NCBI GenBank assembly: GCA_025766275.1
Contig: JAFKAC010000027.1
Location: 372,001 to 436,000 of the forward strand
DNA: 64,000 bases
DNA from: Lactarius indigo
Taxonomy: Eukaryota; Basidiomycota; Agaricomycetes; Russulales; Russulaceae
Direction: 5' to 3'
Under the pieces are notes generated by a model that ran no database searches, had not been told where the DNA came from, and saw nothing but the letters and a program-made list of their open reading frames with translations. The first letter of the stretch is position 1; each line of letters opens with the position of its first letter. Made by a program: the position numbers and the translations under genes. Below are positions 6,985 to 60,500 of this stretch, one piece after another.

Positions 6985-9003
6985 GTGGCGACCGTCAACA
7001 CCCGCGAACAGTGGACGAGTTTTCGTCCTTACCACCTTGAACGAAGAGGAGACCGCAACGTACCAACCCGCTTTCTAGGAGCAGCCCGGTGGAGAGACCG
7101 AGGAGACGAGACCGGATATTTCGTCGAATTCAATGGACCAACACGGTTCAGACCGGTTGAGTTTAATTTCGACCATTTGTGCTGGGTGGAAATTACGTGG
7201 AACCCCATAGATCATCGCTGGGACGTCGTACGACCAGCAGGAAGACAATATCAGTGCGACATCGACGCACGAGAACTCAATTCACGAGCGGACTGGGGCC
7301 CTATTGATGGACAACTGCGTGAACACTCCACAGGTGAAGCAGTAAGCGAAGAAACTGAAGAAGACGAACAAAGTGAAGAAAATCCACCTGCAAGCATCGG
7401 GCCTATCGAACAATACACCATTCAACGAGCTGAGTCCTTACACCTAACAGAACAGCCAGAAGCCATTCACGTGCAATCGCCAGTGGCAGAAATGGCAACA
7501 ACTACCATGACAACCGAAGAAATCATAGCCGTCCGAGAACAAGCGGCGTGAGAAGCAGCCGAAGCAATTAGACAGGAGTCGCAGCGAAATCTCCTCCCAA
7601 TCAACCCCGAAACAGGGCATCGCATGACTGCAGACGACGCAGCGATCTTTTGGGCCATCGGGCCTGATCAAGGAGACCCCCCATCGGGAGGTGGGCAATG
7701 ACAACCACTAGCACTCGACCCTCCGCCAGGGTGGGGAGGACCGCCAGGAGACGACTTTCCCTGTCAACCGGGCGGCGGAGGCAACCCACCTGACCTTCCG
7801 GGACACCCGCAAGGAGGAGGACCGCCAGGAGGAGGCGGGGGAGGCCCACCAGCAGGAGGTGGGGGAGGCCCACCAGGGGGAGGAGGGCATGGACACGAAA
7901 AACTAACAGGTGAACCCCCGACAATCTTTGATGGAGACCACACTAAAGTGGACTCGTTCCTCACGCAATGGCATGTGTATTGGGGAATGAATCTTGACAC
8001 TCCCGTCATGTGAAATGACTACCGACGGTCCCTCCTCTTCCTATCCTACATAAAGGGAGTATCCGTTAGCGAATGGGTGCTCTCATACCTCAAATGGCTC
8101 AATCGGCAAATACAACGCGGAATAGATCAGCATACCAGAGATCTGTGGAATGCAGTAGCAGACGGGTTTAACCAAAGGTTCGTTAATACCCTTGAACGAG
8201 AACAGGCTCAAGCGCTCCTGCGAAAGGGACTCAAGATGGTCGATGGAGACATAGACAAATACGTGAACGAATTCGAAGAAGCCGCAAGGAAGGCGGGATA
8301 CCGCCTTAACGACCCGCAGACCATCGACCTATTCACGAAGGGGTTGCCGAAGAAGTTATATGAGAAAACGTATGACCTAGACAAACCCGAGACGTTTGAC
8401 GAATGGAAACGAGCGACGTTGCGCCGCCAGCGCAACTATATCCACATCAGAGCACGAGTGGACGAATACAAGGACACCACCAAACCCAAGAAGACGGGTA
8501 ACGCAGGATGGACAGTTCCTCAAAACCTCGCCAATCCCTGGGCAATGGATACCTCCGCAGACCGGGTGAAAGCGCGATTGGCTGGATCAGAAGAAATCGA
8601 CTACAGCCAGCCGCCTTACACCGGCCATGTCAATCCACCTCCCTTTCCGCCTAGAGGGGGACCTGGAGTTAGGGGGCGTGGGAGAGGAGGGTCACGACGA
8701 GACCTGAGGATGGTGTTGTGTTACAACTGTAACGCCCTGGGTCATCTCTCACGAAATTGCCCCTATCCCAGACAGCCACGACAGTGGCAATCGCAAAACC
8801 CCGGGCCGTCGACAGCCCAGGTGACGGAAACAGACTATTACACACAAGAGCCGAAAGAGGCCCATATACAAGCCGCCTCCACTAGCAAGACAGCCGAAGA
8901 AAGAGCAAAAGAGTGGCTCACCGGAGTCGCAAACACGCCTGACAAAGTAAAGGACCTCATACTGCAGGATTTATGGGGAAAAGAGGGTTTTCGGAGCGCC
9001 TGA
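6985..9003 (+). pseudogene. gag: Ty3-2 Gag with three premature TGA codons
   Basis: One frame runs from GTG at 6985 to TGA at 9001-9003 and is interrupted by TGA at 7549, 7699 and 8011. It contains the N-terminal domain shared with Ty3-3/4 (EQWTSFRPYHLERRGDRNVP), a Gly/Pro-rich linker (about 7680-7900), a capsid region (LFLSYIKGVSVSEWVL) and a zinc knuckle (CYNCNALGHLSRNC). No ATG exists near the N-terminus. The GTG has A at -3 and G at +4, as in Ty3-3, Ty3-4 and Ty3-5. Confidence 0.88.
8985..8991 (+). promoter_or_regulatory. -1 frameshift site GGGTTTT, Ty3-2 gag/pol
   Basis: It is read G GGT TTT in the gag frame, 10 bases before the gag stop. Downstream, ACCCA and TGGGT flank TCGGCC and can form a small hairpin. 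Pol opens in the -1 frame (RLNPSAWVRAL). Confidence 0.75.
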
Positions 9004-10553
9004 ACCCATCGGCCTGGGTGAGGGCATTAAATTGTAATTCTGTAATCATGACGTGCTTTCGTTCTCTTCGAATTCCAGTCTCGATATGCACAAATTACCG
9101 AATGGCCGACATAAAAGCATTGGTGGACTCGGGAGCCACCGACAATTTCATACACCCAAAATTCTTGAAAAGGATGGGTATTGGTACACAACCAATGACG
9201 CAACCCCGCAAAGTCTGGAATATCGACCATACGGAAAATAAAGCTGGGTCTATCACTCACTTTACGGATCTTGACATATACACCAACAGATATCACAGGA
9301 CTATGCGGTTCCTCATAACCGACCTCGGAACGGAAGATGTTGTCCTGGGATATCCATGGCTGGTGACATACGAGCCAACCATCAACTGGCGCGACGCAGT
9401 AATACACGAAAAGATCATGCCAGTAGTGATCAGTACGCAGGACAGTTCACACCCATATACCGTTGTTGCTGCCGCCCTCACCGAAGACCAGAAGGAAGAC
9501 ATCATTGCAAGTCTAGACGAAGAAGACACATACCTGCGTGCTACTACGTCCACGGAATTAGCGATACAAGCGAAGAAAGATGACAATCCTGTAGAGCTGC
9601 TGGCAGTCTACCAAGAATTCCAGAAGCTCTTCAGCGAAGAAGCATCGCAACGCTTTCCCCCCGCACGACCATGGGACCATGCCATCGACTTCAAACCTAA
9701 TACCCCTTCCGCAATAGACTGTAAAATATACCCACTAACGCAAGAAGAGGAAGGCAAGCTCAAGGAATTCCTTGACGAAAAACTCAAGCAAGGGTACTTA
9801 CGCCCCTCTATTTCCCCGTATGCCTCATCTTTCTTCTTTGTTAAAAAGAAGGATGGCAAGCTACGCCCAGTACAGGACTACCGTGTAATCAACTCTCACA
9901 CCATACGCAATCAATATCCCCTACCTCTCATCCAAGATCTCATTTATGACCTCAGCAACGTGTACATCTACACCAAACTTGACATCCGCTGGGGGTATAA
10001 CAATATTCGTATCCGGGATGGTGACCAAGAAAAGGCGGCTTTCAAAACTAAATTCGGGTTGTTCGAACCTACGGTAATGTTCTTCGGCCTCACAAACTCA
10101 CCGGCAACATTCCAAACAATGATGAATCACATTTATCGAGACACAATTGCCAAGCATGAGCTATGCGGCACGGTCATCCATGTCTACATGGACGATATTG
10201 GGATCGCCACACGCGAAGGACACACCTCCGCGGACCATATTGCCGCCGTTACTGATGTCCTTCGGGTGGCCCAAGAACACGACCTCTACTTCAAACTCGA
10301 CAAATGCCTTTTCCATCAACCTCGGATGGATTACCTGGGGGTAATCCTTGAAAAGGGGGTAACTCGCATGGACCTGGTAAAAGTCTGAGGTATCAGAGAT
10401 TGGCCGACGCCAACAAAGGTCAGGGACGTACGCTCCTTCTTGGGCTTCTGCAACTTTTACCGCTTATTCATCCGAGGTTTTGCAACACACGCCCGACCAC
10501 TAAATCGCCTCACAAGAAAAGATGCTGAATGGCGATGGACGGAAGAAGAAAGC
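8991..10553 (+). pseudogene. pol: Ty3-2 Pol, N-terminal part (protease and RT), cut by Copia-1
   Basis: Protease (DSGATDNFI near 9130) and most of RT are present, with YMDDIG near 10188. An in-frame TGA at 10386-10388 replaces a codon that is CAA in Ty3-1. The frame then continues to 10553, where Copia-1 is inserted after the target bases AAAGC. The next codons are at 18018. Once the insert and one AAAGC are removed, the RT/RNase H frame is continuous. Confidence 0.87.
10328..10362 (+). promoter_or_regulatory. Internal hairpin plus central polypurine tract, Ty3-2
   Basis: The 20-base hairpin at 10328-10347 is identical to the one in Ty3-1. It is followed by GAAAAGGGGGTAA (10350-10362), which differs at one base from this element's own 3' polypurine tract (22609-22621). 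Confidence 0.6.
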
Positions 10554-11091
10554 TGTTGAGACACGACTGTTAAAGTCACATGTCTCGTGGGATCTGATTG
10601 AGTCAGCCCACATACTATATACGGTATCTGTCCCTTATGGACTTATGGACACTCCGGACTCATACGGACCACTTTTGTTTATCTTTATTGTTAAGACCCA
10701 TATATGGTTCTTATTGTTCTTCTATATTTAAGATACCGGTATTACCTGCTTTAGGCAGTTATTGTTCTCTGCCATCCAATGGCATTTCTCCCTCTGGCGC
10801 ACAGACCACCTGTATTGTGTTTGGGTCACCAGTGCGCACAGACCATTATTAGCTAAGCGTCCTGTATATAAGGACTGCTGTTTTCGCCTCTACACTTCAG
10901 AGTTCCCTTCACCTCTGAAGTGTAAGTTCCCTTTCTCATTACTTCTCTATTACCTTTGCTCATAGACGTTCCTTTATAGTAACTTGTCTTCTAGGTATGC
11001 AGTTGTAATAGAGTTCCCTTCACCTCTGAAGTTAACTTGTCTTCTAGCTGTTCAAAGCTTACACCTTGCTCGTTAGTTCTGCGCTTCAACA
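10554..11091 (+). repeat. Copia-1 5' LTR (538 bp) with duplicated start block
   Basis: TATATAAG at 10865 lies 34 bases before block X (10899-10921). X is followed by a GTAAGT...TATAG intron-like segment (10922-10979), block Y (10980-10994), a 15-base linker starting GTATGC, and then X and Y again without the intron (11010-11047). The second copy is the exact spliced form of the first. The LTR ends CAACA. Confidence 0.93.
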
Positions 11092-11103
11092 GGTTATGGG
11101 CCC
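11092..11103 (+). promoter_or_regulatory. Copia-1 primer-binding site, initiator tRNA-Met anticodon type
   Basis: GGTTATGGGCCC directly follows the LTR. Its complement, GGGCCCATAACC, contains CAT and matches the anticodon region of initiator tRNA-Met. Drosophila copia and relatives prime from such a half tRNA. Copia-2 and Copia-3 have the same 12 bases. Confidence 0.8.
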
Positions 11104-12098
11104 TGACGCCTAATAACTAACTTGCTCTTATCAGATCTACTTGTGTCACTTTGCTCTCTCAGCCGACCACATACCTTTGTCGTCTTCCACACCTTCAGTG
11201 AGCATCCTCTATCCTCTTTCGACACACCCTTCTTTTCTTGTCCACCATGACTTCAGTCATGTGCCATTTTGGCTAGCCTCCTAAGGAGGTTCTCATGAGA
11301 GGTTTTACACAACCTCAAATTCCTCTGTGCGCACTACTATATCTTCATTACCCAGTTTTCGTCTGGAAGTGCTTTCATAGGCCAACAGGGGAAGACCCTT
11401 GCGGCTATAGGCCTCTCTAATGGTTGGGTGATACTCGGTTAATACCTGGGTCACTTTAAGGGGTGTGAAGGCCTGGTTAATAGTCAAACCCAGAAGTCCT
11501 TCCCTCTGATACAACTAGGAGACGCTACTTAGTACTATACACAGTGGCTATGACTAGACCTCTGCTAGGAGAAGTATTCGCTCCCCTTGTGCAGGATTCG
11601 CTGCATAGCATGTATCACTAGTCTAGTTACTTAGTATCAAGACCCTTAATGGTCTGTTCTAGAGACTCCACAGACGGAAGATTCAGTTGTTATGGGAGTT
11701 GATCCCTATCACTGTCTCTTGAACTCGCTGTTGGCTCCTCTCTAGGGTACTACCCTTTACTATAGATCCTTAGTAGCCCCAGCATCAAGGCTGTAAGGCT
11801 GAGGGATACAGAGACTTAGTAGTCCTTCGCCGGACCAAAAGCTCCTATTCCGTCGAAGCCAACAAAGCTGTTGCATGACTATTACCCATAGTAACATTTG
11901 GGCTTTGTGGATCTTAGTATAAGGCAGCCATCAGTACAATGATTCCACTACATTACTATATCCAAGTCGCACATACTTGAGGCATGACACCATATGTGTT
12001 ATGGAGTATAGCGCTCCTATGGCTGGACATTTACTTTCTCTACCAAGATCTGAGCTGGTTCTGACTGCTCCTCGGAACCAGATTCACAAACATCTCAA
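11104..12098 (+). other. Copia-1 long untranslated leader, probably spliced
   Basis: About 1 kb between PBS and gag has no convincing ORF on the plus strand and more than ten ATG triplets. Just before gag, CTGAC followed by a pyrimidine-rich stretch and CAG (ending 12081) looks like a branch point and 3' splice site. Donors GTAAGT (10922) and GTATGC (10995) in the LTR could be joined to it, giving a short ATG-free leader. Confidence 0.5.
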
Positions 12099-13081
12099 AT
12101 GTCTTTCCACCTTGTCTTCCCTCCGTCCGTCACCCTTGCCAAGTTGGATGGCACCAACTGGCAGACTTGGTCTGCCACCTTCACCTCCCTCATGCTGATG
12201 AACGGGTGCAGCAGGCACCTTACACATGGTGCCCCTGCGTCTGTACCCCAACATCCCCCTCTTGCAGCAGGTGCTGTGGGGCCCACTGGCCCTACAGATG
12301 AGGGACTCGCCATCCTTGCCCTTTGGGCAAAACAAGAAGAGGTCATTACTGGCCTCCTATTTTTATCAGTGACAACGGAGGTCCTATCTGGTATTCACTC
12401 CTCCCACATCTTCCCAACTGTCCATGACAAGTTCGTGGAGTTGGAAAACCTCTATGGTCAGGTTGGCTCTATGGCCACCTTCAACATTTGGGTGGGCTTG
12501 GCAAATACCAAGCTTCAGGAAGGTAGCCCCTTCCTGCCTCAGCTCCAAAAAATGCTGGACCTGAGGAACACCCTGGTGGAACAGGGAATGCCCGTCTCGG
12601 ACATGCAAATGTCCTTCATACTACTAGACGTGCTCCCCCCATCCTACAGCACCATAGCTGGTACCATTCTGGCCTCTGGCCCCCCTTCTAACCTCCAACC
12701 TCAGGACCTCATCAATAGGTTCATCAATGAGGAATCCCGTCTCACTGGTCCCGTGGCGTCCTACAATAAGGTCACCCCCGTCAAAAAATCTTCGGCCCCT
12801 CACGCTCATGAGGCGCGGCCATCAGGCAGCTCTGTGTCATCAGACATAATCTGCCACTACTGCAAAAAACCTGGCCATAAAAAGCCAGAATGTTACAAAC
12901 TTAAACGGGACCAGGAAAATGCGAAGAAGGGGAAGGCAGGACAGCGGGCAAAAGCTGCCCAGAATACCACAGTTGAGGTGCCGGACTCACTTCCGGCAAA
13001 CAGGATGAATAGTATACCTGTACCAAAGAGCCGACTATTTACCATAGTTAATGGCTCTGGCAAAATAGAGGAGGTACATGA
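12099..13081 (+). CDS. gag: Copia-1 Gag portion of gag-pol, cut by solo LTR-E
   Basis: ATG at 12099 begins a Copia-type Gag (LAKLDGTNWQTWSATFTSLM) of about 300 residues with a zinc knuckle CHYCKKPGHKKPEC (near 12850). The frame runs into LTR-E and stops at once inside it. With LTR-E and one CATGA removed, the frame passes into protease exactly as in Copia-2. The ATG is the first in frame and follows a possible 3' splice site. Confidence 0.92.
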
Positions 13082-13694
13082 TGTTGATAAGTGACCCTTG
13101 CGCACTTAGCGGCTCTTACGGACCGGACTTACAGATACGGACTGCTGTAGATTAATTAGGACCGCTTTAGATTAGATTTGATCTGTACAATCTCGGACTT
13201 CTTTATCTATGACATCATGTACAGTGACATCATATGGACATATCCAGACCTTTCATTGTACTATGCGTTCTTGTATCTTTCTTTGTTCTCTTTTTTCTAT
13301 CCTTATTATGATGTCATTATGATATCACTAACTTCTAGACTCTCCTTGTTCTTTCTGTACTTGTTCTCAGAACGTCCATTCCTTTGTCCGTTTGTAGAAC
13401 AATAACTGTCTTGTAGTACGTGACTTGTGTTACATCCCTTGTATAGTGTCACTCTCAGAAAGTGTATAAGTAGAGTAGCATGTACGCTCCTGGTCCACAT
13501 CAGTTCTCACTGTTTGTGTGCCAGGTAAGCTCCCTTCCCTCCAATGTATAACATCAGTTCTCACTGTTTGTGTGCCAGACTTCCACTTTGCTTCACTCTG
13601 CTTGACACCCCTGTGCTGCTTCCAGTCACCCTCTATATCTCACCACAGTACTATCAGTCCACTGTGAGTATAGTTCTTATGTGTCTGTTCATCA
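13082..13694 (+). mobile_element. Solo LTR-E (613 bp) in Copia-1 gag-pol
   Basis: It begins TGTTGATAAG, ends TGTTCATCA and is flanked by CATGA on both sides (13077-13081 and 13695-13699). TATAAG at 13465 is followed about 32 bases later by a 28-base block that occurs twice: 13497-13524, followed by GTAAGC, and 13551-13578. No internal part of this family is in the window. Confidence 0.9.
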
Positions 13695-13699
13695 CATGA

Positions 13700-16600
13700 A
13701 GTACCTCAGGTTTCCCTTTACACGATGGGTACACATAATACCCAGATTGCATCAAAATGGATGATGGACAGTGGGGCGTCAGCACACTTTACACCACACA
13801 TAGAAGACTACGACACCTACACCCCTCACAAAGGTGTTGAAGTACTTCTAGGAGATAACTCCCTGCTAAGGAGTGTTGGTACTGGAACAGTAACAATCCA
13901 CACCAACTTTGGGTATGACCTAAAGATCTCCAATGTGCTGCACCTACCCAATACGCACTCGCGTATACTGTCCACCCCTGCCCTAACAGCTAAGGGGGCC
14001 ATAGTAAGTTTTGATGCCACTACCTTTGCTATAAGGTATGATGGGAAAACCATTGCGGAAGGACACAAGGCTTCAGGCCTATATTGGCTTGATGGGCATC
14101 ATAAAGTAAATGCCCAAGCAACTGCATCTGCTAGCCTTGATGTCTGGCATCAGCGCATGGGACATATGTCCAAAGAAGCGCTTCAAAGATATGCTCCAAA
14201 GTCTGTAAAAGGACTTAATATAGATGAATCCCCTGAGGAAGAAGGTCCCTGCCATGGGTGTGAACTTGGCAAGTCCACCCGCAAACCTTTTCCCACCTCC
14301 CAGAAGCGTGCACAAGAATCCCTTGAACTTGTGCACAGTGACCTTGTTGGCCCACTACAGAGTAACTCTATCCAGGGCAACAAATACTTTGCCACCTTCA
14401 TAGATGACTTCTCAAAAGCTGCAGTTGTCATCCCCATGAAGTCTAAAGACGAGTTCACGGGTGCCTTTTTACACTACAAGGCATGGGCTGAAAAACAACA
14501 AAACAAGCCCATTAAAACCCTGCACTCAGATCGTGGTGGCGAGTATGTCAACAATGTCCTAAAAGACATTCTTCTGGAGGAAGGGATTGAGCATATGCTT
14601 ACGATGCCTTATTCCCCACAACAGAACGGGAGAGCCGAGCGGTTTAACCGCACCATCATGGAAAAAGGCACCAGCATGCTTCATCATGCTGGCTTGAGCC
14701 TTGGCTTTTGGGAACAAGCAGTTCAGACTGCGGTGCACATCTACAATCGCACCCCAACCCGTTCTAATGAGTGGAAAACTCCGCTGGAGCTCTGGGATGG
14801 TACAGTCCCAGATGTCTCTTACTTTAGAGTATTTGGCTGTAAAGCCTACTATCATGTACCAGAGCACAACCGGCGCAAATTAGATCCTAAATCAAAGGAA
14901 GCCGTGTTTGTGGGCTATGAACCCAATTCAAAGGGTTACAAACTCTGGGATAGACATAGCTGGTGCTTCGTCTCTTCACGAGATGTTACATTTGACGAAG
15001 CTACTTTCCCATCCCTGAGTGACCTGACTAGTCACTCCAAACCACCCATTACCTCTCCCATGTCCGGCGAACCTGCTAAAGGGGCTGCTGTTGCTGGTGA
15101 GATATTCTTTGTAGTGCCTAGTCAGCCTACGCCAGCTGTTGCCCCTGCAGCACCTCAGACACCAGTCTTTGTGTTACCACCTGTTCAGGTGCCTGCAGTA
15201 CCAGTACAACAGCCTAGCACACCCCCCAACACCTCTCCAAATCCCGCCGACCAGACTATCTATCATACTCCGCCATCCCAAGCACCTGCTCCCACAACTC
15301 CAAGGCGCCCTCGCACTCGCTCACAAGGGAGACTGCCTGTAGTAACTGCCCCAATCCCTGCTCCCAACTTCAATAGGGATATCTCTCCTCCTAGGGAAAC
15401 ACCTAGATCTCCGAGGAATGGGCTAGTTACCTCACCCCCTCGCCCAAGGCGTGGGACCAGGGTACGATTCACAAATCCTCGCTACTACACGGAGGAGAAC
15501 GATGAATTTGTGCCTGGGAGCAGTAGGCTGGGAATGATGGACTTGCTAAATGCTGCTGAGGTTCCTGGCTATAAGGACCCGCAGACCTTCAAGCAAGCTA
15601 TGGAGTCTGACCAAGCTGTCAATTGGCTTGAAGCATGCCAGTATGAACTGGATGCTCTCGACAAGCTTGTGGTCTGGAGGCTTGAACCCCTTCCTGAAGG
15701 AAGGAAGGTGGTCAAGTGTAAATGGGTGTTCAAAAAGAAAGCTGATGGTCGCTTTCGTGCTAGGCTAGTGGCAAAAGGGTTCACCCAACTAGAGGGGGTG
15801 GACTTTGACGAAACTTTCTCCCCAGTTGCCCGCTTTGAGTCCTTGCGACTCCTTCTTGCGTTGGCTACGCTTGAAGACTGGCATATTCACCAGATGGATG
15901 TCAAATCGGCATTCCTTCATGGGGAACTGGAGGAAGAAATCTATATGGAGCAACCAGTCGGTTTTGTCACAGCTGGCTCCGAGCACCTTGTGTGCCGGCT
16001 ACAGAAGGCCCTCTATGGCCTGAAACAAGCTTCCCGCGCATGGAATGTGCAGTTCCATGGGGTCCTGGTTGACCTAGGCTTTACGCGGACGTACTCTGAT
16101 GCAGGAGTATACGTGTATCATCTTCAAGAGGGGGGTGATACACTTTTCGTGATCTTATATGTAGATGACATCACTATACTCGGAAGTTCCCTATCAAAGA
16201 TTAAAGATCTGAAGGCTTCTCTATCTAGTCGATATGAGATGACCGATCTGGGAGAAATCCAGTCCTATCTTGGTGTTAACATCACCAGAGATCGCGCTAA
16301 TCGCACTATGGATATCAACCAGTCAGACTACATCCGCGACGTGGTGGAACGCTTTGGAATGTCTGATTCCAATCCAGTATATACCCCTCTTCCCTCTGGC
16401 GCCGAGGCACACTTGATCAAGTACACAGATCAGGCCTCTACTTCTGAGATTAAGAAGTATCAACAGATTATTGGGTCTCTGCTATATGCGCAGATTGGAA
16501 GCAGACCCGATATTTCCTTCGCTGTTGCGCGCCTTAGCCAATTTGCTTCCAGCCCCTCACCTCAGCATTTACGCCTAGCCAAGTATGTCCTAGCCTATCT

Positions 16601-17120
16601 TAATAGCACCAAGGACTACTCGTTACACTATGCTGGAGGGAATGGCAATGGTGGAGAAGGCCTTCATGGCTACTGTGACGCTTCCTGGGGAGATCAGGAA
16701 GAAAAACACTCCACTTCAGGTTTTGTCTACCTGCTTGCAAATGGAGCCATTTCATGGTGTACCAGAAAGCAAAAGACAATTGCGCAGTCTACCACTGAGG
16801 CGGAATACATGAGCCTCTCAGACGCCTCTAATCAGGCTCAGTGGTATGCCACCTTCCTTGAAGAACTGGGGTATGAGGTACCCTCCCCCATTCCTCTGCA
16901 CTGTGACAATAAGGGCGCTGTGGACTTAGCTCTCAACCCTGTCACTGGGAGACGCTCCAAACACATCCTGATCAAGCACCATGTAGTCAGGGAATACGTA
17001 GAAAACAAGGTCATACACCTGATACGTACACCCACAGGGGAAATGGTTGCAGATGGACTTACTAAGTCACTGCCCAGAGAACCCTTTGAAAAAATGGTTG
17101 CTGATCTAGGAATGATGTAA
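13700..17120 (+). CDS. pol: Copia-1 Pol portion of gag-pol (protease, integrase, RT, RNase H)
   Basis: Protease has MDSGASAHFTP. GAG-pre-integrase has WHQRMGHMSKEAL. The integrase core shows D, D and E in HSDLVGPLQ, HSDRGGEYVN and QQNGRAERFNRT. RT has KCKWVFKKK ... GVDFDETFSPVARF and YVDDITIL. RNase H has YCDASWGDQ and TTEAEYMSLSDA. A Pro/Ser-rich hinge (about 15040-15460) lies between integrase and RT. The frame is open to TAA at 17118-17120. The order protease-integrase-RT defines the Copia superfamily. Confidence 0.94.
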
Positions 17121-17474
17121 GATGGGTTCTAGGACGTCGAACTATTGTGTATACTTGCAACAGACTTCCTAGTTTAATAGCTAAGAAAAACCCTTCTTAG
17201 AGAACTGAAGAAGTTGGACCTTGTTCCATCTTATCTCCCAGCTCATGGCTCTTCAAAAAGTAGTTCTTCTGAACTACATTATCCTCATAGAGCAGTGCAT
17301 GAAAACTTCCAAAAAAGTTGTCCTTTATTAGGACTTCTGCGTACATAGATTCTTTCTAACCAGAGAATCGAAACATTTCCTCACAGTACAGTAAAGCAAT
17401 GTGATAATGCCCTGCCAAGGCACTTTTACTAGATGCTTGCACCACTCTTGTGGACTGTCTCTATCATGGAGGGA
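17121..17474 (+). other. Copia-1 3' untranslated region and polypurine tract
   Basis: No ORF is supported. The purine run GGAGGGA (17468-17474) directly precedes the 3' LTR. Confidence 0.6.
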
Positions 17475-18012
17475 TGTTGAGACGCGACTGTTAAAGTCAC
17501 ATGTCTCGTGGGATCTGATTGAGTCAGCCCACATACTATATACGGTATCTGTCCCTTATGGACTTATGGACACTCTGGACTCATACGGACCACTTTTGTT
17601 TATCTTTATTGTTAAGACCCATATATGGTTCTTATTGTTCTTCTATATTTAAGATACCGGTATTACCTGCTTTAGGCAGTTATTGTTCTCTGCCATCCAA
17701 TGGCATTTCTCCCTCTGGCGCACAGACCACCTGTATTGTGTTTGGGTCACCAGTGCACACAGACCATTATTAGCTAAGCGTCCTGTATATAAGGACTGCT
17801 GTTTTCGCCTCTACACTTCAGAGTTCCCTTCACCTCTGAAGTGTAAGTTCCCTTTCTCATTACTTCTCTATTACCTTTGCTCATAGACGTTCCTTTATAG
17901 TAACTTGTCTTCTAGGTATGCAGTTGTAATAGAGTTCCCTTCACCTCTGAAGTTAACTTGTCTTCTAGCTGTTCAAAGCTTACACCTTGCTCGTTAGTTC
18001 TGCGCTTCAACA
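17475..18012 (+). repeat. Copia-1 3' LTR (538 bp)
   Basis: Same length and structure as the 5' LTR, with three base differences seen by eye (in positions matching ACACG/ACGCG, CTCCGG/CTCTGG and GTGCGC/GTGCAC). Confidence 0.95.
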
Positions 18013-18017
18013 AAAGC

Positions 18018-20297
18018 CGCGCGTTCAAAACGCTCAAACGCCTCATAACCGAGGAACCAGTATTGGCACACCCGAGTTTACAAGATCAATTCAAATTAGA
18101 GGTAGACACCTCTGGATTCGTGGTGGGTGCAGTCCTCCTACAAAAGAAAAGTGACGGGCGCAAGCACCCCATAGGATACTACTCCGTGACACTAAGCGAA
18201 GCAGAACGAAATTATGACATTTATGACTTAGAACTTCTTGCCATTGTGAAGGCCCTCCGGCACTGGCGACCACTGCTGGCGGGATCCCCGCACAAAATTA
18301 AGATATTTTCGGATCACTTAAACCTACAGTACTGGAAAACCCTGCAGAAAATCAGCAGAAGAGTTGCTCGAGAAGTACTGGAACTGATGGAGTATGACTT
18401 CGAGATCCATCATATCAAAGGGAAAAACAACGGTAGGGCAGACGCACTATCAAGACGACCAGATTACGATCAGGGAGAAGGAGACAATCAAGGTGTGGTT
18501 GTCCTACCCCCAGAAGTATTCATATGGGTCGCTAACGTCGCACGCACACTGGAAATACACCCCATGATGCAACAACCGAGACGACAACAAGACCCTGCTA
18601 TGATCAAAGCATGGGTCGACGCCCATCGGTTGAAGAAGATAGACGGGGAGTGGTATAAGGATGGGCGGTTGGTAATCACGGGACCGATGGCAACATATCG
18701 GGCCATCATACAAGACCACCATGATCCACCAGTACATGGACACCCAGGGATAAGCAGAACCCAGCGGATTGTAGAACGACATCACTGGTGGCCAAACCTC
18801 CGTCAACATGTATACGAGTACATTACGGGATGCACAGACTGTCAACGAAACAAGGTCAACACCAGACCGACCCGTGCCCCACTTCACCCAATCACCCCAA
18901 TTACAGACGCTCCCCCCTTCCATACCATCGCCCTAGACTTCATTACTAAACTGCCAAGCTCACAGTCGTACGACAGTATCCTGACTATCACAGACCACGA
19001 CTGCAGTAAGGCTTCTATCTTCATTCCGTGCAACGAAGAGATTACGGCCGAGGACACCGCTATCCTGTACGTCAATCACGTGTTCAAGCGATTCAGATTA
19101 CCACGCAAAGTTATCAGTGACCGAGATCCTCGATTTGCTTCCAAGTTCATGAGAGAAGTATGCCGGATACTGGGTATCCAGCAGAATATCTCTACGGCCT
19201 ATCACCCACGTACAGACGGGCAATCTGAACGAACCAATCAGTGGCTGGAGCAATACTTACGCTTCTGGGCCAATGAGCGTCAAGATAACTGGGTGGAATA
19301 CCTTCCGGTAGCAGAATTTGCTCATAACAACTGGCCCCATGAACATACAAAACAATCTCCATTCATGCTTCTGATGGGATACAATCCTGTTGCCAATTGG
19401 ACGGATAAGCCATCCCCTATTCCAAACGTCATTACCAGACTCACTCAGCTGAAGGAAGCACGTCAACTCGCCCAGGATCTTATCAAAAAGGCACAAGATA
19501 GTTGGATCCGGCACAAGGATACTCCACAGTATCAAGTCGGCGATCAAGTGTGGCTGGAAGGGAAACACTTACGAACCAATCAACCCACGGCAAAATTGGC
19601 GGCGCGACGCCACGGACCATTTAAAGTAATACAGGTGATGTCCCCATACAACTATCGCCTCGAACTACCCACGCAGTGGAGCATCCATCCAGTGTTTCAC
19701 ATTGATCTTCTCACGCCGTACAAAGAGACTACCGTTCACGGCGAGAATTTCACACGCCCGCCACCAGATCTTGTGGACGGCGAAGAAGAATATGAAGTTG
19801 AGGCCATTCTAGACTCACAGCATTTTGGCAGAAAGAAGCGATTGCAATATCTGGTCAAGTGGAAGGGCTACCCGGACTCGGAAAATCAGTGGGTCGATAA
19901 GGATGACGTGTTCGCTCCAGAGGCCATACAGAATTACCAAGCGGGCCGAACAGCCTTGCGATATCTTAAAAGCCAGCCAGAGGACGACCAGGGAGAGTAT
20001 CACTCCTACATTCAATCCTCCTCTACGTCTATGCCCACCTCTCCTCTTAGACATGTCACCACGGCGATCCTCCTCGACCAAGTCGCACAAGACGCCGCCA
20101 ACCTCCTCGAAGACGACGAAGAAACCGTGGTACAACCGGTCCAGCTCACTCCGTACACACCTGCAGACGTGCGAACGGGGCATATCACCACTCAAGAATG
20201 GGCTAATGTCTTACAGAGGTTCCCCGACCCGACTCGCCAGCCCGACAACGAGCAGCAGCATGCCGTCCCTCACATCTTCAGAGACAACAACGGCAAT
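18018..20297 (+). pseudogene. pol: Ty3-2 Pol, middle part (RNase H, integrase, chromodomain), ends at LTR-F
   Basis: The frame continues the RT of 8991-10553 after the Copia-1 insertion. RNase H shows VDTSGFVVGAVLL. The integrase HHCC domain is near 18735-18850. Catalytic residues are in ALDFITKLP, ISDRDPRF and TDGQSERTNQW. The chromodomain has LQYLVKWKGYPDSENQW near 19848. The frame is open from 18018 to LTR-F at 20298, and the stop at 20346 belongs to the insert. Confidence 0.88.
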
Positions 20298-21074
20298 TGT
20301 AGCGGTATGACTTATCGCGTACAACTAGACCAAGGTGAAGGTAAGTGAACTGAACTGGTATACACCCAAGCCTAGCGCGGAGACAAGTCACGCGCCGAAC
20401 GTACAGTCACTGCGGAGGATAGACACACGTGAGGTCTTTATGCAAGACCAAAGGTCAGGTGATCACGCAGTGGCATGCTGAGTGGAGAACCAAGAGGACA
20501 AGTTAACATTGGTGAAGAGAGAGGGAAATACAAAGGAATGCGCACCTGAGTGGAGAACCAAGAGGACAAGTTGGTTCCACTCAGGACGCTACATGAGGGT
20601 TTATATACTATGCTGTGGCTGAGTTTGAATTACTACGGAACCTTGTTACTAAAGGTACATGTAATAGTAATGAGTCAGGCGCTGACGCGTCGTGTCTAAT
20701 AATAGCGTTATCTATTGTGCTGACTGATGCACAGTCATTAACGCTGACAGAATGATGACGTGTCCTTATCTATGAGTCACAACCCTATGACAACATGATC
20801 TAGAACTATCTAGAATGTTCCCTGCTTATCGTCCAATGAGAAACTACTATACTAATGAGGAAGGTGACCTAAAGAGGTAACATCCTATAAGGAAGTTACT
20901 ATCCCAGGGTCACGTGCTTGTAGGTGCACATGTTGGCATCACGTGACTAACCATCTTATCTAATGATAAGGACTTGGATGTTTGAGCACAACGTTAGAGT
21001 CTCATATCTCCACCAAATAAATCCGTAAAAATACAGAAAAATAAGGTGAAAATAGAGCGTCCGTGACAACAACA
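20298..21074 (-). mobile_element. LTR-F, minus-strand solo LTR (777 bp)
   Basis: On the minus strand the segment begins TGTTGTTGTCACGG, ends ACCGCTACA, and has TATATAAA about 35 bases before a 27-base block that occurs twice (20546-20572, followed on that strand by GTGCGC, and 20478-20504). This is the layout of the Copia-1 and LTR-E LTRs. The host frame of Ty3-2 pol is split at ACGGCAAT, repeated on both sides (8 bp, not the usual 5). A longer, imperfect duplication that includes a GACAACAAC stretch is also possible, so the exact ends are uncertain. Confidence 0.65.
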
Positions 21075-22621: not shown

Positions 22622-23073
22622 TGTCACGGTTCTCGGTATTGACCCTTACTGTACCGGTTGTGGCTACGGCGGTAAGGTAGATTAGTCACGGACTCGGGGT
22701 TTACGATAGGAGTTAGGCTCAGAACGATGACTCGATCCTAATACGAGTAGTAGTAGTACTAGGATTGCGGTACTTACGCGATACGTTGGACGCTACAATA
22801 CGATGACTCATAGCAGCGCTTCTAAGCCTGCTCTTCTGTATTTAAGATAGCTGTGGAAGACCAAGACGTGCCATCTTGGTCTTCTTCAATCGTCACTTCT
22901 CTATCTCCACGTTCGAGTTCCACCTCTGTATCGATCAGAGAGTCGCGTGCCATACTAGTGTCTTCGAACATCTAGACCCTGCCTTCGTGCCATACACCTT
23001 AGTGCGTGATCAGCTAAGTTGCTGAGTCGCCTTCTACGAGCTCAAGTCAAGCTAACGCTGTGACGGCGTTACA
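22622..23073 (+). repeat. Ty3-2 3' LTR (452 bp)
   Basis: It begins TGTCACGG and ends GGCGTTACA, followed by CTTCG. It pairs with the LTR at 6513-6964. Confidence 0.93.
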
Positions 23074-23976
23074 CTTCGTCTCCGCCTTGTGCTCTTTGCC
23101 CGCCTTTTCCTCCTTCTTGGGAGATCGGCACTCCCGCACCCAATGGCCTGCCTTGCCGCAGTTGTGACAGTTGCCCTTGCGGCGACATCGTTTATTCTCA
23201 GAGCCCGTGGCTGCGAGAGCTTCGTCTCCGGCGGCCTGAGACCTGGCCCCGGACTTGGTGGGTTGAGACTTGGCCCGGTAGTTCTTTATTCGGTCTGCCT
23301 CCTCGCATATGTGGGTGATGAGATCGTCAGTGTCTATGGTGGTGAGATGGTTGTAGAGGGCGGCGCCGGAGAGAAGGCCCGACGTGAAGCGTGCGAGCTC
23401 TTCTGGGATTCCCCGAAGGACCGTGTGCTGGTAATCCCTGTGCGAGATTATCACCCCAGCAGCCGAAAGCTCTTCGCGTTTGAAACGCAGGCCCGTGAGG
23501 AAAGCGCGAACATCGCCTCCCTTGGGACAGCGCATCTCGTAGAATGCCGTTTTGAGGTCATTCTGCGCGTAGATACTCTTGGCCATGAACTCTTGGGCGA
23601 TTCTCTTCCATCGCAGGTGGGCGGTGGGGGAAGGGCCCATGCGTACAGCCGTCGTGTCGTGGAGCCGTTGCGAGAGGAGGTATCGTGCGACCTTGTCGTC
23701 GTGCTCCCACTTCACTTTTTCTGCTTTCTCTTCCTCTGTAGGGGCCATGGGGTCTTTGGGCAGCAGGCAAGGGTTGGTGCTGTCGAAGAAGCCCCATCGG
23801 TTGGTTATGTCCATCGCCTCACTGAAGCGCATAAGAAATACGGCCCAGTTTGAGCCGTCAGTTTCCAGGCGAGGGATGTTTGCAGGGAGCAGTTCTACAG
23901 TGGAAGGAGGTTGGGAAGGGGGCGGCATGGCTGACGAAGACGCGGACGCAGATCCAGATGCAAGGGTTCCAGTCAT
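23074..23976 (-). pseudogene. gag: Copia-3 Gag, cut by Ty3-2
   Basis: The minus frame from ATG at 23976 encodes a Copia-type Gag of about 300 residues with a zinc knuckle CHNCGKAGHWVREC, then Lys-rich sequence up to the Ty3-2 insertion. The last codons continue in frame into 6512-5882 (protease). No stop is seen within the visible part, so Copia-3 may have been intact here before Ty3-1 and Ty3-2 landed. Confidence 0.85.
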
Positions 23977-24033
23977 ACTGATTTCAGACAATAGCGAGGT
24001 GGAGATAGTGTGTGGTATTAGTGGCGCTCGGCA

Positions 24034-24045
24034 GGGCCCATAACC
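24034..24045 (-). promoter_or_regulatory. Copia-3 primer-binding site, initiator tRNA-Met anticodon type
   Basis: On the minus strand GGTTATGGGCCC follows the LTR end (TTACA), as in Copia-1 and Copia-2. Confidence 0.78.
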
Positions 24046-24418
24046 TGTAAGTTATGGATAGTTTTGGGAGCTCGGAAGCAGCACGTGAGGCAAACTAGAA
24101 AGGACGGATAATCTCAGTATCGCGTGTGTACGAGCGATGTCTGTATTGTATTTACCTAGAAAGGACGGATAATCTTTCTAGGCGTAAGCGTGCTGAAAGT
24201 AAACGAGTGGTAAAGTAAGCTCACCTCAGTATCGTGCGTGTATGAGCGATGTCTGAGGTGCTAGGTACGAGGGAACGAAAGTACTTGTACTACGGAGTCA
24301 AAAGATGTAATACGTATGGCTGTCATGCTAACAGATATTCAGGGGGACAGGCGACGGACAGTTGTATTGTGCTAGAGTAAGGTTTTAGAGTACGTGTGAC
24401 GGAAGCAAATGTTCATCA
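24046..24418 (-). repeat. Copia-3 5' LTR (about 373 bp; outer end tentative)
   Basis: The inner end (…AACTTACA) is fixed by the adjoining PBS. The outer end is placed at TGATGAAC (24418 on the minus strand), next to the broken DUF6535 gene. It contains block X twice (24225-24255 and 24113-24143, three mismatches) and block Y twice (24156-24173 and 24095-24112). Between the first X and Y is a 51-base segment starting GTGAGC and ending AG. In the second copy X and Y are directly joined. Confidence 0.7.
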
Positions 24419-24422
24419 CGCA

Positions 24423-26133
24423 TTATCTGCGCTCGATCTCAACAGGTTTCCAGAAATTGTCGAATTGACGGCGAATGATGTGAATCAAGACGATAAGTGA
24501 CAGGCTATCACCATGTGCGGCGTAGTCTCGAAGGACAGATCCCGGGATGCCCAGTTCGTCGGAGGCGATAGCAAACCAATCGTCATCGCGTCTTTGTGCC
24601 CTTGCGACAACACTGGAAACTATAGCCGAGATCAGCTCGGTCAAATGAGCATCCTTGCAATTATCCCAGCTTCTTACAAGACGCGCAATTCCGGCAGATT
24701 GCACCGGACCATACTGATTTTCGGACATGATTCTGCCAAGAACCTGCCGAAATGCTTGAGGAATGTGTGCCAGATCGATTGCCCGTGAACAGATGACAGC
24801 TCTCCGACGTTTGACATGCTCGGGAAGCAAGTCGGACGAGAATGTACGGTCAAACAACCCGATCACCGCTTGACAAAGCCTCCAGATTTGCTCTTCGGTG
24901 AGATGGGGAAGAGGATCGTCGACCACTTTGGAGCTGCGGAAGCCAGGTAAGCCGGAAAAGAAGCGTTCCTGATCGTGATCTTCGCCCAAACTGTCGAGCG
25001 TCCACAGAAATACGCGGGTGTCAATGTCCGGTGGTGCATTCAGAGCGGATTCTTCGGCTGTCTTCTGCATGCCTTGCGCAAGCAGAGCACGATAGCCTTT
25101 CTCTCCATATCTGGAAGTTTGGCGTGAAGTTCCTCTGTGAAAGTTAACCAGCCGGGTATACCACCGAGGGACCCCATCGATGACAAATAGTATGCCAATA
25201 ATAATGGGCCAGACCAATGACGTGAGCGGGGTAGAGTACGGGCTGTCGTGGCGAAAAATGGGGATGAACGTGATAGATCCATATAGAGCCGTGCAAACGC
25301 AGACCCATGATAGCACCAGTTTGAAAATAGTGAGATCAACGTTGCATAGGAACGTCACTAGACCGGCAAAGAACAGAAACAGGGACGCGTGTAGTAGCGT
25401 GGGCAATGCTTCAACTGAGCAGCATGGTAGGAGAAACTTTTCGACTCCTTCGAAAAAGAATGCACGAATCCTCGATCGCTTGTGCGGACCATAGCGTGGT
25501 TGAGTTGCCTTGAGGTATCTTCGTGCCCACTGCTGTAGCAGCGTCGCGAGCAGAGCACAGGTAAGACTGATCGTCAAGCTCAAGAACCAAAGTGAGTTCA
25601 CCCACACGGCATAGTTTGGTGGAGTGAATGGGGGCGGAGAAGGAAGGGATATATTCAGTCAATTCGAGTCGGCAATAACTTGGTAGATATTCGCGAGGTA
25701 GAAGTTGGAGGTGTCCTGTGGGTTTGGTCGAATGTCCTGAATGGACACTGAGATCAACGACGCGACAGCAGCGGAGAATAAACCAGTCTATAACTGTTGA
25801 GTTGGCGTGAGGCACAGAATTAGGAGATAGAGACGCACAAATATAAGGATCCCGTCAGCGTCCGCTTTCCAACCTTCGACCATCTTCTTGTCTTCTTCCG
25901 TCGCCATTTCCAGGTACATGGAGAAGATAGGACCAGAACCATCAATGAAAGTAGGTTCTCCCTGTGTTGCTTGGGTTTGCGCCAACGGGGGTGGGTACGG
26001 GTTGCTATCTATGGGTGCGGCGGTGGCAGTTGAGAACGGTATGAACAGAGTTGTGTAGAAAGGGAACTGTACCTTTTCCCCCTTCGGGTACGTTGGCCTC
26101 GTGAAGGGTATGGGTCATTGAAGATGGTCGCAT
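24423..26133 (-). pseudogene. DUF6535 membrane-protein gene 1, broken
   Basis: Minus strand: exon 1 26073-26133, intron 26009-26072, exon 2 25839-26008, intron 25788-25838 (51 bp, GTGCGT..TAG), exon 3 from 25787. Exon 2 has the same 170-base length and phase as in the intact gene at 36298. Exon 2 encodes EEDKKMVEGWKADADGILIF, and exon 3 the membrane segments (VNSLWFLSLTISLTCALLAT) and FFSGLPGFRSSKVV. An in-frame TGA at 25659-25661 interrupts exon 3. The gene ends after 24423, where the Copia-3 LTR begins; the rest would lie beyond Copia-3. Function of the family is unknown. Confidence 0.8.
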
Positions 26134-28986: not shown

Positions 28987-29528
28987 TGTTGAGACGTGAC
29001 TGTCAAAGTCACATGTCTCGTGGGATCTGATTGAGTCAGCCCACATACTATATACGGTATCTGTCCCTTATGGACTTATGGACATTCCGGACTCATACGG
29101 ACCGCTTTTGTTTATCTTTATTGTTAGATCCATATATGGTTCTTATTGTTCTTGCTATTGTTAAGATACCGGTATTGTCTGCTTTAGGCAGCTATTGTTC
29201 TCTGCCGTCCAATGGCATTTCTCCCTCTGGCACACAGACCACCTGTATTGTGTTTGGGTCACCAGTGCGCACAGACCATCATTAGCTAAGCATCCTGTAT
29301 ATAAGGACTGCTGTTTTCGCCTCTACACTTCAGAGTTCCTTCTACCTCTGAAGTGTAAGTTCCCTCTTTCTACCTTACTCTTTTCACCTTTACTTATAAG
29401 ACGTTCTATAGAACTTGTCTGTCTCTAGGTGTGTAGTAATGGTATTAGAGTTCCTTCTACCTCTGAAGTAACTTGTCTGTCTCTAGCTGCCCAGCTTATC
29501 CCTTGCTTGTTAGTTCTGCGCTTCAACA
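28987..29528 (+). repeat. Copia-2 5' LTR (542 bp)
   Basis: It begins TGTTGAGACG and ends TTCAACA. Block X is at 29332-29354, the intron-like segment at 29355-29411, block Y at 29412-29428, and the directly joined second X and Y at 29447-29486. X and Y differ from those of Copia-1, yet both copies agree within this LTR. Confidence 0.95.
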
Positions 29529-35292: not shown

Positions 35293-35834
35293 TGTTGAGA
35301 CGTGACTGTCAAAGTCACATGTCTCGTGGGATCTGATTGAGTCAGCCCACATACTATATACGGTATCTGTCCCTTATGGACTTATGGACATTCCGGACTC
35401 ATACGGACCGCTTTTGTTTATCTTTATTGTTAGATCCATATATGGTTCTTATTGTTCTTGCTATTGTTAAGATACCGGTATTGTCTGCTTTAGGCAGCTA
35501 TTGTTCTCTGCCGTCCAATGGCATTTCTCCCTCTGGCGCACAGACCACCTGTATTGTGTTTGGGTCACCAGTGCGCACAGACCATCATTAGCTAAGCATC
35601 CTGTATATAAGGACTGCTGTTTTCGCCTCTACACTTCAGAGTTCCTTCTACCTCTGAAGTGTAAGTTCCCTCTTTCTACCTTACTCTTTTCACCTTTACT
35701 TATAAGACGTTCTATAGAACTTGTCTGTCTCTAGGTGTGTAGTAATGGTATTAGAGTTCCTTCTACCTCTGAAGTAACTTGTCTGTCTCTAGCTGCCCAG
35801 CTTATCCCTTGCTTGTTAGTTCTGCGCTTCAACA
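35293..35834 (+). repeat. Copia-2 3' LTR (542 bp)
   Basis: Virtually identical to 28987-29528. It is followed by the target duplication TCGAC. Confidence 0.96.
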
Positions 35835-48091: not shown

Positions 48092-48634
48092 TGTTGAAGC
48101 GCAGAACTAACAAGCAAGGGATAAGCTTGGACAGCTAGTAGGACAAGTTAACTTCAGAGGTGAAGGGAACTCTATTACAACTGCATACCTAGTAGGACAA
48201 GTTACTATAGAGAAGCAACGCCTATGAGTAAAGGTAATAAGAGAAGTAAAGAGGAAGGGACTTACACTTCAGAGGTGAAGGGAACTCTGAAGTGTAAGGG
48301 CGAAAACAGCAGTCCTTTTATACAGGACGCTTAGCTAATAATGGTCTGTGCGCACTGGTGACTCAAACACAATACAGGTGGTCTGTGCGCCAGAGGGAGA
48401 AACACCATTGGATGGCAGAGAACAATAACTGCCTAAAGCAGACAATACCGGTATCTTAACAATTGAAAGAACAATAAGAACCATATATAGGTCTTAACAA
48501 TAAAGATAAACAAAAGCGGTCCGTATGAGTCCGGAGTGTCCATAAGTCCATAAGGGACAGATACCGTATATAGTATGTGGGCTGACTCAATCAGATCCCA
48601 CGAGACATATGACTTTAATAGTCGCGTCTCAACA
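48092..48634 (-). mobile_element. Copia-1-type solo LTR (543 bp), minus strand, with unmatched flanks
   Basis: On the minus strand it runs TGTTGAGACGCG ... TTCAACA and is a close relative of the solo LTR at 59958. The bases on its left are ATACC and on its right TGTTC, so there is no target duplication. The left flank is Ty3-4 pol (chromodomain) and the right flank the 3' LTR of Ty3-4. A deletion therefore accompanied its formation. Confidence 0.88.
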
Positions 48635-57388: not shown

Positions 57389-57801
57389 TGTCATGAACAC
57401 CCCTATCTTTTTCCTACCTCTCTCCTTCTCCCCTCACACTTCGCAGCTCTGCTGGCATTCGTCCTGCTGGCATCTGCTTCGCTGGCACTTGTCTCGCTGG
57501 CATCTGCCTTGCTGGCATTCGCCTTGCTGGCACTCCTGGACATTAGCTATATAAACCCTGTAATGTACACTGTATTTCCTTAGCTTTGGCTTCGTCAATA
57601 TACTGTCTAGTCCCATCAAGTGCCTCCCCCTCATCTCTATCACAGTCCTCTTCTCTGAAGCCTTGTTGCCTTGAGCTATATCAAGGAATGCTCACAGACT
57701 TGGGCGCCGTTCTGCTCAGCAGCGGACCAACTCAGTATCCTTTGCCCTAGGCAGGACCTGTTACAGACCGACCCAACGCACGCCCCGACAGTGGCGTGAC
57801 A
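57389..57801 (+). repeat. Ty3-5 5' LTR (413 bp)
   Basis: It begins TGTCATGAAC and ends GGCGTGACA. TATAAA at 57550 precedes TAGCTTTGGCTT (57581-57592), the inferred RNA start region. A short upstream ORF (ATG in the leader, about 20 codons) lies between the start and gag. Confidence 0.92.
57451..57540 (+). repeat. 15-bp minisatellite, six units, in the Ty3-5 LTR
   Basis: Six consecutive 15-base units each begin GCTGGCA. They end seven bases before the TATATAAA box. The same array is in the 3' LTR (63874-63963). It may be an upstream activating array; this is inferred from position only. Confidence 0.8.
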
Positions 57802-59957: not shown

Positions 59958-60500
59958 TGTTGAGACGCGACTATTAAAGTCATATGTCTCGTGGGATCTG
60001 ATTGAGTCAGCCCACATACTATATACGGTATCTGTCCCTTATGGACTTATGGACACTCCGGACTCATACGGACCGCTTTTGTTTATCTTTATTGTTAAGA
60101 CCTATATATGGTTCTTATTGTTCTTTCTATTGTTAAGATACCGGTATTGTCTGCTTTAGGCAGTTATTGTTCTCTGCCATCCAATGGTGTTTCTCCCTCT
60201 GGCGCACAGACCACCTGTATTGTGTTTGAGTCACCAGTGCGCACAGACCATTATTAGCTAAGCGTCCTGTATAAAAGGACTGCTGTTTTCGCCCTTACAC
60301 TTCAGAGTTCCCTTCACCTCTGAAGTGTAAGTCCCTTCCTCTTTACTTCTCTTATTACCTTTACTCATAGGCGTTGCTTCTCTATAGTAACTTGTCCTAC
60401 TAGGTATGCAGTTGTAATAGAGTTCCCTTCACCTCTGAAGTTAACTTGTCCTACTAGCTGTCCAAGCTTATCCCTTGCTTGTTAGTTCTGCGCTTCAACA
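59958..60500 (+). mobile_element. Copia-1-type solo LTR (543 bp) in Ty3-5 pol
   Basis: The target duplication GTACT is at 59953-59957 and 60501-60505. Block X is at 60304-60326, the intron-like segment at 60327-60387 (GTAAGT..TATAG), block Y at 60388-60403, and the joined second X and Y at 60419-60457. Block Y differs from those of Copia-1 and Copia-2, yet matches its own second copy. Confidence 0.94.

Follow-up and report, generated by a model that had tools for sequence, protein, structure and literature searches.

How can a retrotransposon keep an intron in its long terminal repeat (LTR), the most exposed place there is, when reverse transcription of a spliced RNA should erase that intron in one cycle? 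The question is raised by a Copia element of Lactarius indigo that lies in the 64,000-nt stretch of contig JAFKAC010000027.1 analysed here (hereafter the window). A classical LTR (U3-R-U5) has as its R a single unbroken repeat from the RNA start onward. In the 5' LTR of this element, the stretch after the predicted start of the RNA contains an intron-like segment and then a second copy of the flanking blocks, and the two copies change together. Such a segment persists in a large family, whose linker/X' junction is present at 190 places, and in one or more families of very different sequence.

The seat of the finding is the 5' LTR of the element at 10554-18012 on the plus strand (Table 1). The assignment of this LTR to Copia, made in the first-pass annotation, is borne out by the domains of the element and by its ends. 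A gag_2 domain is present, and pre-integrase, rve and SH3 domains (residues 118-429) stand ahead of RVT_2 (650-889), which is the order of the Copia superfamily; the two LTRs, 538 nt each, are 99% identical, have TG..CA ends and are flanked by AAAGC on both sides. The insertion splits a Ty3-type element with a chromodomain (window positions 8973-10388 and 17958-20348). GGTTATGGGCCC directly adjoins the 5' LTR, as a tRNA primer site would, and recurs in the second family (family C). The putative primer-binding site GGTTATGGGCCCTG probably matches the anticodon loop of the initiator tRNA. A scan of 10300-18300 gave no Rfam family at gathering score, and no relatives of the pol were found in viral contigs in a search that may omit records close to the genome of the window.

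Table 1. Coordinates of the Copia element, of its duplicated block and of related copies in the window.
Feature	Position	Strand	Details
5-bp target duplication AAAGC	10549-10553 and 18013-18017		flanks of the Copia element
5' LTR	10554-11091	+	TG..CA, 538 nt; partner 17475-18012
TATATAAG	10865-10872	+	starts 34 nt 5' of X; full TATA box
X, putative first exon	10899-10921	+	predicted RNA start A 10899, perhaps rarely C 10898 (scar analysis)
Intron 1 (putative)	10922-10979	+	58 nt, GTAAGT..TATAG; conserved ends and CTYAT stretch; missing from X'Y'
Y, putative micro-exon	10980-10994	+	15 nt, ends TAG
Linker L	10995-11009	+	last base 11009 T or C in the family, proposed strand-transfer scar
Intron 2 (putative)	10995-11047	+	53 nt, GTATGC..CTAG; linker + X' + Y'; removal leaves X-Y-U5
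X'Y', encoded intronless copy	11010-11047	+	X' 11010-11032, Y' 11033-11047; proposed landing site of strong-stop cDNA
U5-side remainder of 5' LTR	11048-11091	+	44 nt
Primer-binding site GGTTATGGGCCCTG	11092-11105	+	would be retained in the double-spliced RNA; common to family C
gag ORF	12099-13094	+	Retrotran_gag_2
pol ORF	13725-17120	+	integrase, RVT_2
3' LTR	17475-18012	+	X 17820-17842, intron 17843-17900, Y 17901-17915, L 17916-17930, X'Y' 17931-17968
Family C gag ORF	23047-23991	-	21% identical to family A gag
Family C LTR rest and primer-binding site	24032-24094	-	LTR rest 24046-24094; GGTTATGGGCCCTG 24032-24045
Family C block	24095-24255	-	X 24225-24255 (its first base, C, perhaps part of U3), GT..AG 24174-24224, Y 24156-24173, linker 24144-24155, X'Y' 24095-24143
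Subfamily B block in LTR at 28987	29332-29486	+	X 29332-29354, intron 29355-29411, Y 29412-29428, L 29429-29446, X'Y' 29447-29486
Subfamily B block in LTR at 35293	35638-35792	+	X 35638-35660, intron 35661-35717, Y 35718-35734, L 35735-35752, X'Y' 35753-35792
Subfamily A block in minus-strand LTR	48135-48288	-	intron 48205-48265
Subfamily A block in LTR at 59958	60304-60457	+	intron 60327-60387

The layout of the block is exact. In the 5' LTR of the window element X equals X' and Y equals Y', and the joined copy is, to the base, what X and Y become when the 58-nt GT..AG segment between them is taken out. The junction between X and Y cannot slide, so the GT..AG ends of this segment are not a choice of register. 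X begins 34 bases after the start of TATATAAG (10865), and the stretch from the GTATGC of the linker to the end of Y' measures 53 nt with an AG end. With the exception of the fixed junction, these features had been described in the annotation; its coordinates proved accurate to the base and the same layout was recovered in the 3' LTR.

We scanned both strands of the window for two 10-mers lying 40-200 bases apart whose copies stand side by side within 400 bases. The matches were six LTRs of the same family, one unrelated LTR (family C) and one tandem repeat without GT..AG. The latter lies at 57461-57522 and has a unit of 45. Five 6-mer-block shuffles of the window gave no match at all, while the window read backwards gave 12, as is expected because reversal keeps the repeats. 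Over all 291 contigs of the genome (90.3 Mb), 220 places match the promoter stretch of the LTR with at most two mismatches, and exact patterns placed the linker/X' junction at 190.

The LTRs compared below form a non-random sample, which consists of the window together with the 40 best matches of one similarity search (its own copy and 39 others), 30 of the 40 matches of another search (those with loci) and the first 30 of the 220 promoter matches. Of the 97 pieces one was double (C2:444880/445123), and 91 of the 96 distinct pieces parse fully. The five dropped pieces fail for structural reasons, i.e. deletion, breakage, truncation or collapse: X'Y' of C35:686275 has an internal deletion, C28:108678 and C28:109810 are broken, C43:94107 is truncated and C2:381897 is collapsed. 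Two of the five come from L070 and could be the two parts of a single broken LTR. The parsed LTRs fall into subfamilies A (55 LTRs) and B (36 LTRs), which differ in X, intron, Y and linker.

The signals expected of a spliceosomal intron, namely a GT 5' site, a branch-like motif and an AG 3' site, are present in the LTR. GTAAGT and the final AG of intron 1 are constant in 91 of 91 parsed LTRs, as are the GT start and TAG end of the second candidate intron (linker, X' and Y', 53-58 nt), although the parser demanded the ends of both. The CTYAT stretch shows no variation in A and almost none in B. It shares this conservation with a few further short stretches, and the remaining columns of intron 1 vary in up to half of the elements. 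Removal of both introns would leave X-Y-U5 and the primer-binding site, thus a doubly spliced RNA could still be primed, and by reasoning this is the only splice form whose strong-stop DNA, placed on X'Y', would restore the same LTR. One would argue that the layout could be kept without splicing if the RNA started directly at X': X'-Y' would then be an ordinary R, and X-intron-Y a relic or the product of another promoter. The intron end TTTATAG, 31-37 nt before X' in the window copy, could indeed pass as a weak TATA box. However, the intron ends in ACAG in seven and in GTAG in two of the 92 listed LTRs, and the full TATA box stands before X. Such a start is hardly credible to us, also because it involves no copying of XY to X'Y' and cannot explain the mirrored changes to which we now turn.

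X and Y together equal their own X' and Y' in 88 of the 91 parsed LTRs, and 17 different versions of Y occur among them. Y' equals Y in 89 of 91; in 10,000 rounds of shuffling Y' within subfamilies the matches averaged 36.6 and never exceeded 49. Even the one-base difference at the splice junction, AG/TAAC in A versus AG/AAC in B, is mirrored in X'Y'. On a tree of 72 elements, with one LTR each, built from intron, Y and linker (the block tree), 16 changes are required for Y, 18 for Y' and 18 for the two together, so that all 16 changes of Y are mirrored and two occur in Y' alone; X changes four times and X' three times. A tree of the U3 of the 91 LTRs gives 39 changes for Y, 39 for Y', 41 for XY and 41 for XY with X'Y'. 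Since U3 has been shuffled against the block, the U3 tree mixes A and B blocks, therefore the counts were taken from the block tree. The independent divergence of the two blocks, which had been set beforehand as the observation to speak against the annotation, is thus absent, and the comparisons establish the concerted change, its exact limits and the spliced join. The direction from XY to X'Y' is our inference.

One pair of LTRs illustrates these limits. C34:81599 and C250:148157 have an identical 62-nt intron and Y, and their linkers differ in the last base only. One has the B form of X and the other the A form, and in both the X' agrees in form with the X of its own LTR. Copying from X to X' with the middle untouched is what a transfer of a spliced end would do.

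Three of the 91 LTRs, C254:62862, C242:203031 and C34:98406, do not match. The changed Y' of C254:62862 is also found in the LTR 6.3 kb away (L112), hence the change arose no later than the last cycle. That of C242:203031 is absent from a similar LTR at a distance of 17 kb (L113), perhaps its partner and perhaps not. The two changes are the same, TAAC to TAAT, and stand unmirrored in Y' of two elements with different Y's, which counts against the mechanism proposed below. The same C to T change also occurs in Y of the collapsed LTR L111, so that it is seen on three backgrounds. The three unmirrored changes compare with 11.8 expected over the 91 LTRs from the divergence of LTR pairs (19 pairs), a deficit that lies outside the account given by the mechanism. 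The annotation held that the second copy is rewritten in every cycle. Frequent rewriting is upheld, as no unmirrored change is common to elements with the same Y, but "every cycle" exceeds the data and rewriting may fail now and then.

We propose that the two copies are kept alike in the following way. Transcription would start at X and the leader would be spliced twice, at 10921/10980 and 10994/11048, which would give an RNA that begins with X-Y-U5-PBS and keeps the primer site. Strong-stop cDNA made over U5, Y and X would be the complement of X-Y-U5. It would be transferred to the 3' end of an RNA that ends beyond X' and has an unspliced 3' LTR (U3-X-intron-Y-L-X'-Y'), where it would pair with X'Y', the only place in which X and Y are contiguous, and its extension would proceed through L, Y, the intron, X and U3. 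An LTR made in this way would keep its intron, and its X'Y' and U5 would be copied from the spliced 5' end. The 5' terminal repeat R would, in other words, be made by splicing, and its 3' partner would be the encoded intronless copy. We are fairly confident that the best explanation of the layout is an LTR that stores the 5' end of the genomic RNA in two forms, with the spliced strong-stop cDNA landing on X'Y'. The interpretation offered in the annotation is in this respect supported, and it survives the strongest test that the genome sequence allows here. What counts against the mechanism is that the intron would have to be spliced out at the 5' end of the RNA and yet stay in the 3' LTR of the template RNA, an escape for which the mechanism gives no reason.

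The junction between linker and X' shows a mutation hotspot that bears on the point of transfer. Exact patterns, which miss copies changed nearby, found the last base of the linker to be T at 159 places and C at 31, and A or G at none. All 72 elements have a C in front of X. A C at the end of the linker is found in eight of the 72 (six of A and two of B), which makes eight changes on the block tree, or seven if two near neighbours share an origin, whereas all other linker positions together show seven differences (71 elements with the standard linker length). The binomial probability of this excess, 1e-6, is only rough because the counts are of elements. Among 19 LTR pairs both LTRs have C in two, both have T in 17 and none is split, therefore the change took place before or during reverse transcription. 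We read this base as a scar at the point where the 3' end of the strong-stop cDNA lands, and the junction does resemble one left by strand transfer. It could be that some RNAs start one base 5' of X and bring the C along, or that the reverse transcriptase sets G opposite U at the first step after the transfer; both options would place the transfer point at the start of X'. The annotation had put the RNA start at X, and the identity of the scar base with the base before X in both subfamilies speaks indirectly for this predicted start, as does the spacing between the TATA box and X.

The scar also bears on another possible course, in which the RNA ends after the linker and the X-Y-U5 strong-stop cDNA is joined to it end to end in each cycle, so that X'Y' is made anew without pairing. 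Such joining, too, would leave the intron in place and pass XY on to X'Y' in each cycle. As a rule, end joins and poly(A) sites vary, yet the linker has a constant length in each subfamily, namely 15 nt in 53 of the 55 LTRs of A and 18 nt in all 36 of B. The exceptions are the two LTRs of one element (the C6 pair), which have 16 nt with one extra T at the linker/X' junction. The scar is moreover a substitution that leaves the length unchanged, which suggests that the cDNA pairs with a pre-existing X', while end joining should give insertions and varied lengths. We therefore consider end joining very unlikely.

The LTR of family C, a different Copia family, provides a second instance of the layout in the window; it lies on the minus strand ahead of a Copia gag. 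It is dissimilar to the family A LTR except for 17 bases at the LTR end and the primer site, and still has a 31-nt X, a 51-nt GT..AG segment, an 18-nt Y ending in TAG, a linker beginning with GT, and X'Y'. Its junction slides by up to two bases, GT..AG being one of three registers. An ORF with DUF6535 lies on the minus strand upstream of the block (24423-25607). The copy is an old one, with X and X' different at three places that are all G/A at CpG sites; no TATA was seen about 30 nt before its X. We compared by eye eight fetched pieces of the 44 that match, the copies being 98% to 70% alike. Y' equals Y in seven of the eight comparable copies, the window copy included, and six different Y's are found among the seven; L118 has a Y quite unlike that of the window copy and still doubled. 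In L119 Y and Y' mismatch, and three differences are seen there between the visible ends of X and X' as well. In X', AGACATC is preceded by T in L115-L117 and L122, by the C that also precedes X in the window copy, and by G in L118; in L119 and L121 divergence is too great for the junction base to be placed, thus the scar is only partly repeated in family C. This G and the missing TATA of the window copy count against the mechanism. L117 (G000:C1:1364470-1364700) carries the joined copy twice in tandem with the linker between, as is expected if intron 1 was removed but not intron 2, or from unequal exchange at Y.

The doubled Y's of family C are of importance for the question whether X'Y' goes back to a single ancient event (a spliced RNA that was reverse transcribed, or a duplication by chance) and has been inherited passively since. 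The junction is exactly GT..AG, hence an event that involved spliced RNA is likely at the origin. Inheritance alone predicts that the copies diverge independently, and is already contradicted by the mirrored changes, which on the block tree comprise 16 of 16 changes of Y. In addition, X' follows the switch of X alone from A to B form, and the unrelated Y's of family C are doubled too. We give the ancient event as a sufficient explanation almost no chance. As to the mechanism that we prefer, it is rather probable that splicing creates the replicative R, that a whole lineage of Copia elements keeps its LTR introns by means of an encoded spliced junction that serves as a landing pad, that the flow from XY to X'Y' is one-way and passes through spliced RNA, and that this mode has outlived all similarity between the LTRs of families A and C.

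It remains to consider gene conversion at the DNA level, or recombination between direct repeats, which could keep X and X' as well as Y and Y' alike without splicing. Exchange between X and X' would yield collapsed LTRs of the form U3-X-Y-U5 without intron, and such LTRs exist. Among 100 listed of the 114 places with the U3-X-Y pattern five are collapsed and the other 95 have an intron; L108-L111 and L059 are collapsed LTRs, as is L120 of family C. The triple copy in L117 can come from unequal exchange at Y as well. However, repeats of 15-23 bp would have to be converted whole and separately with intron and linker untouched, and the base gained at the hotspot, right at the start of X', is always the one that precedes X. 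The join of Y to U5 that is expected of Y-Y' exchange was found at no place (exact pattern, subfamily A introns ending in TATAG); it would also be the product of splicing intron 2 only. The exact pattern of X'Y' followed by the linker, i.e. the product of splicing intron 1 only or a triple copy, was likewise found at no place in subfamily A, while the control pattern X'Y'-U5 was found at 128. Taken together, recombination seems to us an unlikely explanation. The collapsed LTRs themselves were not counted as evidence, because they fit a wrong landing on X and plain X-X' recombination alike. L109 and L110 are two collapsed LTRs 5 kb apart with a primer site after the first, thus their element was probably made collapsed during replication. 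In another element, L058/L059 (C2:375001 / C2:381897), the 5' LTR is full and only the 3' LTR is collapsed to the form U3-X-Y-U5; this is beyond strong-stop transfer alone and counts against the transfer to X'Y' as we propose it.

Compared with known systems, the element is of a known kind with a putative replication detail that is not known from elsewhere. In HTLV-1, BLV and foamy viruses a splice donor lies in R, near the start of the RNA, as the predicted 5' splice site does here; in these viruses, however, the genomic RNA is left unspliced and the primer site is lost on splicing, whereas U5 and the primer-binding site would stay in the RNA of the L. indigo element. Tyl6 of Yarrowia is a fungal LTR retrotransposon with a spliceosomal intron, but one that is not known to lie in the LTR. 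We recognised no published LTR that contains an intron plus its own spliced copy in open-access full texts (most subscription journals lie outside that scope), in line with the statement of the annotation that no LTR with this layout has been described.

Among the Copia elements, Onsen is reported to recombine at the first template switch in R (PMC5668417). The L. indigo element resembles such ordinary Copia elements in its gag and pol, TG..CA LTRs, 5-bp duplication and shuffling of LTR parts among family members, and differs in that the 3' partner of R is an encoded intronless copy and the 5' R would be made by splicing (PMC5668417). In BARE of barley, separate RNA pools are reported, and the spliced RNA serves Gag and is not copied; its authors hold that retrotransposons must avoid reverse transcription of spliced RNA (PMC3735527). 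Both are Copia elements with a spliced RNA, putatively so in L. indigo, where, contrary to BARE, this RNA would be the template (PMC3735527). Ogre and EVADE are LTR retrotransposons with functional internal introns that give subgenomic RNAs by alternative splicing, and the passages on them describe no intron in the LTR; the same source relates how the movement of Ty elements by way of RNA was classically proved, namely by the loss of an intron inserted into them (PMC12786077). For HIV-1, it is reported that the start site matters for first-strand transfer (PMC4668388) and that spliced RNAs are reverse transcribed in particles (PMC1868081). Spliced RNA can thus be a template there, as is proposed here, but HIV-1 is not known to have an encoded spliced copy that receives the cDNA. 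Should the proposed mechanism be true, contiguous encoding of R at both ends would not be necessary, and spliced RNA could be the main template. Each LTR would then be a readable record of its last splicing and perhaps of its last start site, and start-site use and transfer fidelity could be read from genome sequence alone.

The comparison of elements also bears on which RNA would receive the cDNA. Frequent landing on the RNA of another family member should produce copies with Y and Y' from different haplotypes. Such copies were found in none of the 72 elements; in two elements they differ by one base, which is present in no other Y. The cDNA would therefore have to be transferred mostly to the same or an identical RNA, although U3 and U5 shuffle freely against the block; this contrast counts against the mechanism, which gives no reason for it. 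Distances in the intron correlate with those in XY (0.46) and the linker (0.76) and hardly with those in the nearest U3 segment (0.06) or U5 (0.04) when all 72 elements are taken. Within A only (49 elements) the values are 0.08 for U3, 0.15 for U5, 0.42 for XY and 0.04 for the linker, which is nearly constant in A. U3, the block from X to Y' and U5 are freely shuffled among the A and B copies of the 72 elements, as if the block were a cassette.
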